Notes under the pieces: generated by a model
Told to the model about the DNA's origin: nothing
The model's input: only the letters and a program-made list of their open reading frames with translations
Database searches by the model: none
In this document: piece after piece, positions 23,401-38,080 of the stretch
Position numbering within the stretch: position 1 is the first letter of the stretch
Layout of the letters: the number at the start of each line of letters is the position of its first letter
Made by a program: the position numbers and the translations under genes
Source: Lytechinus variegatus
Taxonomy: Eukaryota > Echinodermata > Echinoidea > Temnopleuroida > Toxopneustidae
DNA length: 64,000 bases
Assembly (NCBI RefSeq): GCF_018143015.1
Contig: NC_054741.1
Coordinates: 15,933,736-15,997,735 of the forward strand
Direction of reading: 5' to 3'

Positions 23401-26400
23401 CACAAAGGTTAGCAATTAATCGTACTTGATTTTCACGATTGATTGTACATTGTAGTCAATGGATAGTGTAGTAGGTTTCACGGTACACCATGTATCTCCT
23501 GAGGACGACAAGAACACACTTGTCGAAACGTCGAGATTGGTGGTCCTTTTCAGGACCAACACTTGCCCAAGGAAGACATGGTGTGCCGTGAAACCTACTA
23601 CACTATTCTTCTTCGCCATGGAAACCTTCGAAAGTAGTCAATAAAATCGATCATAGAAAAATGATCTACGATCATTACGAAGTTGTGTTACTGGCTCCTG
23701 ATTGTTAGTGGGTTCATAATGGCATACTCATGTGAAAACTGTCATTCTGGTCTTTAAACTAATGAATATTTGGAAATAAACTACATGTGTGTTTTTAATG
23801 TGTAATTTAGTAATTTGCTTTTTCTTTCTGAGTGTTAAGCCCTTTCAGTAGAGTCGATTTCAAAAGGCTCAACACTTTTCAATAAGCATACTGTAGGCCT
23901 ACATTAAAATAGAAGTGTAGCATGAAATGATGAAGGAAATAAGTTGTTATTGAAAGTTTGAATATCCATCAAAGAAGTTTGTCTGCACATGAGGAGATCT
24001 GATGGCCATGTATTATATATTTCAAAGGAAGAGAATTATGTAAGTACCATCGTTATTGTTAAGTAATGATTTCTGTTTCATTTTTTTCATACAGCTATTT
24101 GCAACAGAGGAGAATACTAAATTAGCCTTGAGTCAGATTCCTATGAAACGGTAATTCGCCTTTTATCATTAAAAGATTTGGGGTTTATATTGTTTTTTGT
24201 CTCACCTGCATAGCAGAGTGAGACTATAGGCGCCGCTTTTCCGACGGCGGCGGCGTCAACATCAAATCTTAACGTGAGGTTAAGTTTTTGAAATGACATC
24301 ATAACTTAGAAAGTATATGGACCTAGTTCATGAAACTTGGCCATAAGGTTAATCAAGTATTACTGAACATCCTATTAGAGTTTCATGTCACATGACCAAG
24401 GTCAAAGGTCATTTAGGGTCAATGAACTTTGGCCGAATTGGGGGTATCTGTTGAATTCCCATAATAACTTTGAAAGTTTATGGATCTGATTCATGAAACA
24501 TGGACATAATAGTAATCAAGCATCACTGAACATTTTGTGCAAGTTTCAGGTCTCATGATTAAGGTCAAAGGTCATTTAGGGTCAATGAACTTTTGCCGAA
24601 TTGGGGTATCTGTTGAATTACCATCATAACTTTGAAAGCTTATTGGTCTAGTTCGTTAAACTTGGACATTAGAGTAATCAAGTATCACTGAACATCCTGT
24701 GCGCATTTCAGGTCACATGACCAAGGTCAAAGGTCAATGAACTTTGGCCGAATTGGGTGTATCTGTTGAATTACCATCATAACTTTGAAAGTTTATGGAT
24801 CTGATTCATGAATCTTGGACATAAGAGTAATCAAGTATCACTGAACATCCTGTGCGAGTTTCAAATCACACAATCGAGGTCAAAGGTCATGTAAGGTCAA
24901 TGAACTTTGGCCATGTTGGGTTTTTTTGTTGAATAATCATATCTCTGTAAGTTTATTGGTCTAGTTCATAAAAAGTGGACATAAGAGTAACCATGTATCA
25001 CTGAACATCTTGTGCGAGTTAGAGTAGTTTTCAAAGTCAGCACTGCTGCTATTAAACCGCGTGATGTAGGTGAGACGGCCAGAGGCATTCCATCTATGTA
25101 CACCAGGGGAGTGTTATATCAGTATATGTTGTCTGACAAGTACAACTTTCCTTGATTGTGATTGGCCAGAAAGCATTGTTATAATGGTACCTGTTGGATA
25201 AAACATCTGACAGAATATTATCTGACAGTTTCTATAGGAGCTGTGCTTCTCAGCCAATCAAATCATGGGGAGATCTCAGATCTGACAATTTGTTAGACAA
25301 AAACAATGTTGAAGGAATATTATCAGTTCAAAACTCTGTAGTATCTGAAGAATTTCACCTAGCTAAAACAGTTTTATTTTGTATTCATCTCTTATCACTC
25401 TTATCACATATACTTTAGTATATGCCAAAATACAAGTGATAATGTATTGATGTCAGATAAAGAACAACATATGTGTTGCACCAAAGGTGTGGCTATTATT
25501 ATCATAATAATATTTTTGTAGCATCTTTTTCTTGAAAAGGTACTAAGTGCATTACATAACAAATTGTTTTCTCCATCATGTTAGCTAAAAATGATTTTTT
25601 TTAAACATTTTTGATGATTCTTTCCTTCATTGGTATTTTCTTTATTCAGATTGCAGTGTAAATACTCTTTCCCCTTTTCTGTACGTGTCCCTTTGTATAT
25701 GCTAATGAATGCAATTAAGTGTTGAAATATTTTTTGAAAAATCTATATTTTCTGTACAATCACGAGAGTGACCTTATCATTACTTGATGAACTACATGTA
25801 TTCCTATGTATGAAGAATTTGGGTAAAGGGAACATAGTAGTCAAGTCAATGTTTGCATTCTCCAAGTAGTGTCAATTCCAAGGTCCAACTTGTATTAAAG
25901 GGATTGTTAGTCTTGGAAACAGACCACTGTTATAACCTTAGCATAATAGATGAATAAAGGTCATGGACTGATTATATATGTGTATAATAGCTTGAATACC
26001 ATATTAGAAAAGACAGTCAATATAACTTAGCATCCACCTGTCTGTAGTAAAAATCTGTCTTTGGTTGCCACATGAATTATCTCCCATTTGAAAGGAATGT
26101 AGAATTCGGTTCCATGACATTTGCTCTGGCGACAATTGCTCCGATGGAAAATCTGCATGTTAAACCAAACATGAAATCAAACATTCAAAACTAAATAAAA
26201 CCTAATCACTATGTTTACATTAGTCTGAACCAAAAACTCTATTACAATCCTAACTCTACCCCTATCCCCTCTGAGATATTAAGACATGAGCAAATGTCGC
26301 AGGAGCAAATGTTGTGTCGCCTGTAGAACCTGTCTATAAATACCACCTGTCTTCAGTGACCACTTTTTCTGTTTCCCTTGGATGGCCTTCATAGACAGGT

Positions 26401-36543: not shown

Positions 36544-38080
36544 AGGGGAATCCAACCCAAATAAAAACTTGTTTTTATAAGGAAAAGAAAAATCAGACAA
36601 GTTGATAGCTGAAAGTTTGAACAATATTGGACAAACAACAAGAAAGTTAAGAATTTTTAAAAGTTGTAAATATTGCTAATCACTATACCCATGGAGACTT
36701 CAAATTGGCCACATATGGGATGTCATAGTGATGTAAGGCAAGGACTACTCTTCCATGTACTCCAATACATATTATGGCTAAATTGTCATTTTTCCCAAAA
36801 GTTTTATTTCAAATTATATTTTTCTTTCATGAGGACATAAACAATATACTATCTGGGTTATAATTAGATTACTGCCCCAGGGGAATGGGTACTTAAAGGA
36901 GACAAGTGGAATGCCTCTGGCCGTCTCACCTGCATCATGCGGTTCAATATAGCAGCAGTGCTCACTTTGAATACTACTCTAACTCGCACAAGATGTTCAG
37001 TGATACATGGTTACTCTTATTTCCCTTTTTTATGAACTAGACCAATAAACTTACAGAGATATGATGGTTATTCAACAAAAAACCCCAACATGGCCAAAGT
37101 TCATTGACCTTACATGACCTTTGACCTTGATCATGTGACCTGAAACTTGAACAGGATGTTCAGTGATACTTGATTACTCTTATGTACAAGTTTCATGAAT
37201 CAGATCCATAAACTTTCAAAGTTATGATGGTAATTCAACAGATACACCCAATTCGGCCAAAGTTCATTGACCTTTGACCTTGGTCATGTGACCTGAAACG
37301 CGCACAGGATGTTCAGTGATACTTGATTACTCTAATGTCCAAGTTTAATGAACTAGACCAATAAACTTTCAAAGTTATGATGGTAATTCAACAGATATCC
37401 CCAATTCGGCCAAAGTTCATTGACCCTAAATGACCTTTGACCTTGGTCATGTGACGTGAAACTCATGCAGGATGTTCAGTGATACTTGATTAACCTTATG
37501 TCCAAGTTCCATGAACTAGGTCCATATATTTTCTAAGTTATGATGACATTTCAAAAACTTAACCTCAGGTTAAGATTTCGATGTTGATTCCTCCAACATG
37601 GTCTAAGTTCATTGACCCTAAATGACCTTTGACCTTGGTCATGTGACATGAAACTCTAATAGGATGTTCAGTAATACTTGATTAACCTTATGGCCAAGTT
37701 TTATTAACTAGGTCCATATACTTTCTAAGTTATGACATCATTTCAAAAACTTAACCTCAGGTTAAGATTTGATGTTGACGCCGCCGCCGTCGCCGTCGGA
37801 AAAGCGGCGCCTATAGTCTCACTTTGCTTCGCAGGTGAGACAAAAACCACAAATCCCTGATAATAAAGTACATGGCCTATGGGAAAGTTGTCCTTGCCCC
37901 TTGTCATAATTTACTTACCCAGTTGCCAATTTGAAATCTACATAGTATTAGTGATCTCAATTTTAAAACAGCAATAACTTTCTTATTGCTTGTCCGATTT
38001 CTTTCAAACTTTCACCATTCTGTTTGATTTATTTTTCTCCTTCCCAACACACCATTTTATGGCCAAGGCTGGATTCCCCT
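36544..38080. mobile_element. Element B: TTAA-flanked MITE (AGGGGAATCCAACCC ends), inside element A
   Basis: The left end AGGGGAATCCAACCC and right end GGCTGGATTCCCCT (38080) are inverted, each flanked by TTAA (36540-36543 and 38081-38084). The related sequence at 14690-15295 has a single TTAA at this point, showing the pre-insertion state. It is non-coding. It shares the TTAA + AGG style with the family at 8067-9268 but differs in sequence. It is itself interrupted by element C. Confidence 0.8.
36907..37846 (-). mobile_element. Element C: GTCTCACC-ended repeat with four DR1 sites, copy 2, inside element B
   Basis: Reverse-oriented relative of 24193-25092. On the plus strand it begins TGGAATGCCTCTGGCCGTCTCACCTGC (read as two overlapping phrases) and ends GCAGGTGAGACAAAAA. 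It contains GGCGCCTATAGTCTCAC near the right end and about five diverged 150-165-bp tandem units. The DR1 sequence TGACCTTTGACCT occurs at 37115, 37268, 37431 and 37623. It is non-coding. Confidence 0.8.

Follow-up and report, generated by a model that had tools for sequence, protein, structure and literature searches.

A perfect DR1 motif as a candidate conserved core of the repeats carried by non-autonomous Helentrons in the sea urchin Lytechinus variegatus

In a 64,000-nucleotide stretch of the Lytechinus variegatus genome (contig NC_054741.1, forward-strand positions 15,933,736 to 15,997,735; hereafter the window), two copies of a short dispersed element carry perfect DR1 sites, that is, direct pairs of AGGTCA separated by a 1-base spacer. 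This carrier is a HINE-type element, a non-autonomous Helentron, and it spread the motif, a conclusion about which we have little doubt. The DR1 forms the centre of a module of ~38 bp, AGGTCACATG-(2-3 nt)-AAGGTCAAAGGTCATTT-(0-2 nt)-(A/G)GGTCAA, and comparisons within and between two families of such elements suggest that this module is probably of use to the element itself, perhaps via a host nuclear receptor.

All eight perfect DR1 sites (AGGTCAAAGGTCA) reported in the window by the initial annotation are present at the positions and on the strands that it gave (Table 1; 0 in 100 shuffles), and each satisfies the DR1 definition exactly. The two copies of the element are oppositely oriented. 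Successive sites lie 163, 162 and 153 bp apart in copy 1 and 153, 163 and 192 bp apart in copy 2, so that the internal unit of 150-165 bp described previously fits most gaps, with one gap in copy 2 being longer. When up to two mismatches were allowed, the window was found to hold 14 DR1 sites, against 3.83 expected. A ninth perfect DR1, at 1178-1190 on the minus strand, lies in neither HINE copy; the region in which it sits (1178-1294, minus strand) has a one-mismatch DR1 104 bp further on and only a weak partial match to the module.

The anatomy of the element supports its classification. Typical copies start with about five Ts and GTCTCACCTGC, the 5' subterminal inverted repeat (subTIR), followed by an inverted repeat and then by a GGC/GAC run of variable length. 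The central tandem repeats, with units of 153-192 bp that mostly contain one perfect DR1 each, are followed by the 3' subTIR, GCAGGTGAGAC, and by the terminus GGCCAGAGGCATTCCACTTG(T). The subTIR pair (GTCTCACCTGCAT / ATGTAGGTGAGAC) extends over 13 nucleotides and is 92% complementary in copy 1, and the same pair is seen in the relatives that we fetched. The inverted repeat beside the 5' subTIR is predicted to fold into a hairpin (-7.5 kcal/mol, z -2.56; 4/200 shuffles as good), and the stem-loop predicted at the 3' end is weak (-3.9 kcal/mol, z -0.65; 47/200 shuffles as good). No stop-to-stop frame of at least 120 amino acids overlaps either copy in the window. Forty copies for which both ends were located by script had a median length of 1,104 bp (629-1,966) and contained two to five exact DR1s, with four or five in 35 of the 40. 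The element inserts at T-runs, and the first base of the 3' flank was a T in 35 of these 40 copies. For copy 2, the randomly chosen region L049 provided a paralogous empty site (91% identity), its junction marked by TTTT with no target duplication; a second empty site, weaker and partial, is held by region L015 (79-82%).

In its T-rich termini, subTIRs, 5' inverted repeat, microsatellite, central repeats, insertion at T-runs and non-coding character, the urchin element resembles the HINE and DINE-1 elements characterised in the excerpted part of PMC4067079, where the inverted repeat beside the 5' subTIR is given for DINE-1 and not for mite HINEs, and where sea-urchin Tsp transposons (Cohen 1985) are cited as DINE-1-like. 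Features of this kind are also described for the oyster Cg_HINE (PMC7492417). The urchin element differs from those of PMC4067079 in the weakness of its 3' stem-loop and in that no autonomous Helentron sharing its termini was recognised, the ends of the candidate frames not having been read. The genome contains 14 matches to Helitron_like_N, eight of them within uninterrupted frames of 3,149-3,508 amino acids, and a protein source for the element therefore exists in the genome; by inference, Helentron frames of the same genome mobilised the HINE family. The Helitron_like_N matches are bunched at C4:2135854-2497953 and C6:44300557-44359357, with several in uninterrupted frames of more than 3,000 amino acids, a pattern suggestive of Helentrons that were active not long ago and that cluster locally.

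Genome-wide counts were made on the 869.6-Mb assembly of 33 contigs, the window belonging to contig 2. This revealed 50,969 perfect DR1s, against 27 occurrences of the reversed string, which corresponds to a density of 58.6 per Mb, or one per 17 kb on average, and bears out the description of the repeat as dispersed. At least 41,351 of the 50,969 (81%) sit in the module CATG-N2/3-AAGGTCAAAGGTCA, for which the control gave 0. The earlier proposal that the element could spread nuclear-receptor sites thus holds for motifs. Since so large a share of perfect DR1s lies in the module, any attempt to map HNF4, RXR or COUP-TF targets by motif in this sea urchin would be swamped by the transposon. The termini are abundant as well, with 8,452 occurrences of the 44-nucleotide 3' end and 6,393 of the 43-nucleotide 5' end (up to three mismatches; controls 0). 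By these counts copy 2 of the window qualifies by both ends and copy 1 by its 5' end only, the termini of copy 1 differing from the searched ends by 3 mismatches at the 5' side and 5 at the 3' side.

To compare units within this first family, we collected 349 unit hits in all, counting the random and DR1-fetched sets. Sets A and B together with the window supplied 290 of them, and 233 of these served to define unit types, units covering fewer than 140 columns being dropped. Loci L001-L008, which had been fetched by their DR1, were left out of the rate tests, and L011 is a duplicate of the window. Besides those of the window, the 233 full-length units derive from 49 loci; five types account for 231 of them, two stand alone, and 212 of the 233 contain an exact DR1. 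Substitutions separate the five types at 46 of 163 columns, against none of the 13 DR1 columns (P 0.011), and over AAGGTCAAAGGTCATTTAGGGTCAATGAACTT the types differ in 2 of 32 columns (P 9e-4). Shared variants were likewise about five times rarer in the DR1, at 0.0023 per site, than in the other non-CpG columns, at 0.0123.

A second HINE family, represented at L030:2724-3340, has other ends (GTCTCGCCCACC), a GTCCGTCC microsatellite run and repeats of 153-161 bp, and contains the same DR1 module. A first look across the genome gave 2,544 candidates for this family, 40 of which were scored; the full-length ones have ~80-84% identity. Three intact DR1s are present in seven of the eight fetched relatives, and the query copy has only one. 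Across 27 units, none of 140 windows of 13 columns surpasses the DR1 in conservation, its value being 0.980 against 0.943 for the other non-CpG columns (one-sided P 0.04). When the consensi of the two families were compared, the DR1 consensus was matched exactly, at 13/13 positions, in both, and the module agreed at 34 of 36 aligned positions, against 41 of 86 upstream of it (Fisher P 4e-7). The upstream figure was obtained without gaps in a fixed register, as the best of 41 shifts, and was equalled in 0/5,000 shuffles. We therefore treat the units of both families as distant homologues, and the idea that unrelated families came to share the module by chance was rejected on the same ground. 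Outside the module, local alignment between the families was at shuffle level (57/500 shuffles as good; global alignment 147/300). Taken together, these comparisons show a module that stayed near-unchanged in source elements through the divergence of the remaining unit, which is indirect evidence, of moderate strength, for a use to the element itself.

Several points weigh against this interpretation. The windows used to measure conservation were picked after the motif had been seen, and the second family is represented by nine copies with 27 units, namely L030 and eight copies that were among the best matches to one query. The agreement at 34/36 positions derives from the best local alignment, with four gapped columns excluded. 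Nor is conservation confined to the DR1: the neighbouring 13-mer GGTCAATGAACTT equals it in invariance between unit types, and two islands upstream of the module, CATAACT and AAACTTGGA, are also kept between the families. Individual copies add two further points. Genome-wide and with background removed, one-mismatch neighbours per exact copy stand at 0.43 for the DR1 against 0.32 for GGTCAATGAACTT, so that single copies show no excess of retention. In a random sample of 12 regions of 10 kb (120 kb), which yielded 13 unit matches confined to three regions, an exact DR1 was found in 1 of the 12 old units that were long enough, a small sample.

Some of these data would suit a neutral origin, in which the source element chanced to hold AGGTCA-like direct repeats that copying multiplied, and in which units look conserved owing to a brief history, to gene conversion among them or to a sequence that seldom mutates. 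The lack of a retention excess and the near absence of exact DR1s from old units both fit such a by-product, as does the deficit of private mutations in the DR1, which is not significant (10 against 18.4 expected from base composition; Fisher P 0.07 on singleton rates). In addition, one unit type regained an exact DR1 via a 10-bp deletion between GGTCA repeats, an indication that recombination can preserve the string. A neutral origin accounts poorly for conservation that is local and that appears again in a second family, the units of the two having otherwise diverged far, and we regard this explanation as possible but rather unlikely. The same evidence qualifies the remark in the initial annotation that the DR1 match may be a by-product of the repeat: the repeat did bring the motif along, but in two HINE families the motif ranks with the parts of the unit that are conserved best.

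Turning to the stage at which constraint would operate, the old units in the random regions gave a DR1 identity of 0.763, not above the 0.775 of the median window in this small sample. Retention above neighbouring sequence in single copies, the behaviour looked for in a host-used enhancer, was not found in the family, a family-wide result with which single exapted copies would still be compatible. With source elements showing conservation and individual copies showing no added protection, constraint seems to act during copying of the element and not on the copies left behind.

A constraint of this kind might also come from the element's own machinery. The module could bind Helentron replication proteins in the manner of iterons, or could be a recombination box that maintains tandem repeats, its likeness to a DR1 being coincidental. 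Each unit has several direct GGTCA repeats, in a fixed order that is found in two families, the 10-bp deletion type itself originated between such repeats, and the Helitron-linked BIV160/Cg170 repeats of bivalves likewise keep two conserved motifs, according to the excerpted part of PMC5139131. The exact match to the DR1 consensus in both family consensi speaks against coincidence. Furthermore, a hairpin in the family-1 module (z -4.78) had to be discarded as a shared feature, as family 2 lacks a counterpart (best inverted match 6/13). We consider a role in the machinery unlikely, and less probable than a neutral origin.

The account that we favour is that the module is kept for a receptor of the host. 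Rolling-circle copying of the ~1-kb element would have relied on Helentron proteins supplied by other loci of the genome, its central repeats carrying the DR1 along with each copying. A host DR1-binding receptor, of the HNF4, COUP-TF or RXR type, may bind the modules in the germ line or early embryo, and its binding could keep source elements transcribed or their chromatin open, thereby enabling copying. Single insertions, the intronic DHRS4 copy discussed below among them, would be mostly passive, their motifs decaying. The nuclear-receptor protein class is present in the genome, with 60 zf-C4 matches. As a whole, comprising rolling-circle spread, maintenance of the module in source elements and use of a host receptor, this account is tentative, and we would put it slightly short of an even chance. 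The account also bears on the reason for the tandem repeats that Helentrons carry and for the short conserved boxes that these retain. In a broader version, the module (CATG half-site, perfect DR1 and further half-site) would be a working conserved part of the central repeats of several Helentron families. Such elements would couple their spread to a host receptor that is active in germ line or early embryo, and the ~51,000 perfect sites that they thereby placed in the genome would be enough to titrate or rewire receptor binding. This broader version appears doubtful to us at present.

The initial annotation had raised the possibility that the intronic copy ties DHRS4 to retinoid or fatty-acid signals, citing mammalian DHRS4 as reported to respond to PPAR-alpha ligands. 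Copy 1 does lie in a DHRS4-like gene, within its last recognised intron, and three of the 3' exons, with their translations joined, match the DHRS4 structures 2zat (E 1.1e-30) and 3o4r (E 1.7e-30), whose chains we take to be those of pig and human. The assignment of copy 1 to a DHRS4 intron was thus correct, with the intron number, eight, unconfirmed. The four perfect DR1s lie 248-738 nucleotides into this intron, where they could in principle form an enhancer making DHRS4 respond to retinoid or fatty-acid receptors. However, the background density of DR1s makes such a placement unremarkable. Over the initial 1.755 Mb of contig 1, for which the sites of both strands are fully covered, 72 DR1 sites form 31 clusters, 59 of the sites lying in clusters of at least two; this amounts to about one cluster per 57 kb, or ~1.1 expected per 64 kb, and at this density the three clusters of the window have a P of about 0.11, so that the DHRS4 copy needs only chance. 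A parallel expectation based on 3' ends (0.62 per 64 kb; P 0.13 for two) was dropped, since the 3' end of copy 1, with its five mismatches, is uncountable by that search. Constraint after insertion was likewise not found family-wide, although a single useful copy would be compatible with tests of this kind. Regulation of DHRS4 by the intronic copy was accordingly dropped as the leading reading for these two reasons, background DR1 density and the lack of copy-level constraint. The proposed tie to retinoid or fatty-acid signals is unsupported, and we consider it highly improbable; the intronic copy looks incidental. As a caution, one intronic copy of such an element should not be read as regulating its gene.

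Copy 2 lies outside DHRS4. A TP53RK-like gene runs on the minus strand in this part of the window, and the copy sits ~1.3 kb 5' of the first of its exons to be recognised. GGTCA-like half-sites also cluster close to this gene, at 34636-34682, outside the recognised HINEs and together with a DR1 that has one mismatch.

Among known systems, the oyster Cg_HINE (PMC7492417, in part) and BIV160/Cg170 (PMC5139131) offer a parallel in that Helentron-type elements carry and disperse satellite-like repeats; the units of BIV160/Cg170 diverge as the two conserved motifs are kept, a comparison made here by description and not by sequence. A conserved nuclear-receptor module sets the urchin element apart, there being no mention of one in the HINE/DINE-1 description as excerpted from PMC4067079. 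The dissemination of nuclear-receptor motifs by a high-copy mobile element has a precedent in Alu, for which sites for HNF4 and the retinoic-acid receptor are described (PMC3252374, PMC1785376, both in excerpt) and ~1.2 million HNF4-bound sequences are reported (PMC3252374). Alu, however, is a retroelement with mostly degenerate sites and measured binding, whereas the urchin element has perfect DR1s in tandem, known from sequence only. Similarly, the ISX and ISXR Helitrons of Drosophila miranda show a Helitron-type element dispersing the motif of a regulatory protein, in that case the MSL recognition motif (PMC4384637, excerpted portion). According to the same excerpt, the ISX motif was gained by deletion and is used by the host on the new X chromosome; the urchin motif, by contrast, is an old part of the unit and occurs genome-wide. 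The spread of nuclear-receptor motifs by transposons (Alu) and of a regulatory motif by Helitrons (Drosophila) is therefore already known from these sources. Word searches of the open-licence literature found no report of DR1 sites in Helentron or sea-urchin repeats, and a perfect DR1 as the putative conserved core of Helentron central repeats would be new with respect to that literature.

Table 1. Coordinates of the DR1 sites, the two HINE copies and the neighbouring gene features in the window
Feature	Position	Strand	Basis or remark
Perfect DR1, unit 1	24399..24411	+	exact string match
Perfect DR1, unit 2	24562..24574	+	exact string match
Perfect DR1, unit 3	24724..24736	+	exact string match
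Perfect DR1, unit 4	24877..24889	+	exact string match
Perfect DR1, copy 2	37115..37127	-	exact string match
Perfect DR1, copy 2	37268..37280	-	exact string match
Perfect DR1, copy 2	37431..37443	-	exact string match
Perfect DR1, copy 2	37623..37635	-	exact string match
HINE copy 1, 3' terminus mutated	24193..25092	+	5' T-run at 24193; matches of relatives cover 24193-25092
5' subTIR, copy 1; inverted repeat after it to ~24224	24199..24211	+	pairs with 25064-25076, 92% complementary
3' subTIR, copy 1	25064..25076	+	inverted pair with 24199-24211
Central tandem repeats, copy 1 (four complete units plus a partial one)	24298..25020	+	
HINE copy 2	36903..37846	-	5' end 0 mismatches, 3' end 1; empty site in L049
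DHRS4-like exon, catalytic part	21384..21515	+	
DHRS4-like exon preceding the copy-1 intron	24095..24150	+	donor at 24151
Last DHRS4-like coding exon, ends -AKL	27065..27178	+	start approximate
Open frame with first recognised TP53RK-like exon	35156..35611	-	TP53RK E 6.3e-19, residues 72-136; no Pfam match
Second TP53RK-like exon	31262..31774	-	TP53RK, E 1.9e-51

An Rfam scan of the window at gathering thresholds gave no match. Further tandem arrays lie at 32828-33961, 41367-41931 and 42937-46053, with periods of ~439, 153 and 341 bp, respectively. On the minus strand, the window also contains an exostosin GT47 open frame (54021-55469), an ankyrin-repeat open frame (4731-5480) and an RNase H fragment (16341-16721). 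Elsewhere in the genome, bindin, a sperm protein of sea urchins, has four matches (best E 4e-66), against none in 14 control genomes, which identifies the host as a sea urchin, and two bindin loci lie ~6 Mb apart on one contig (C13:18601949 and C13:24947663), reflecting either a duplication or an assembly artefact.

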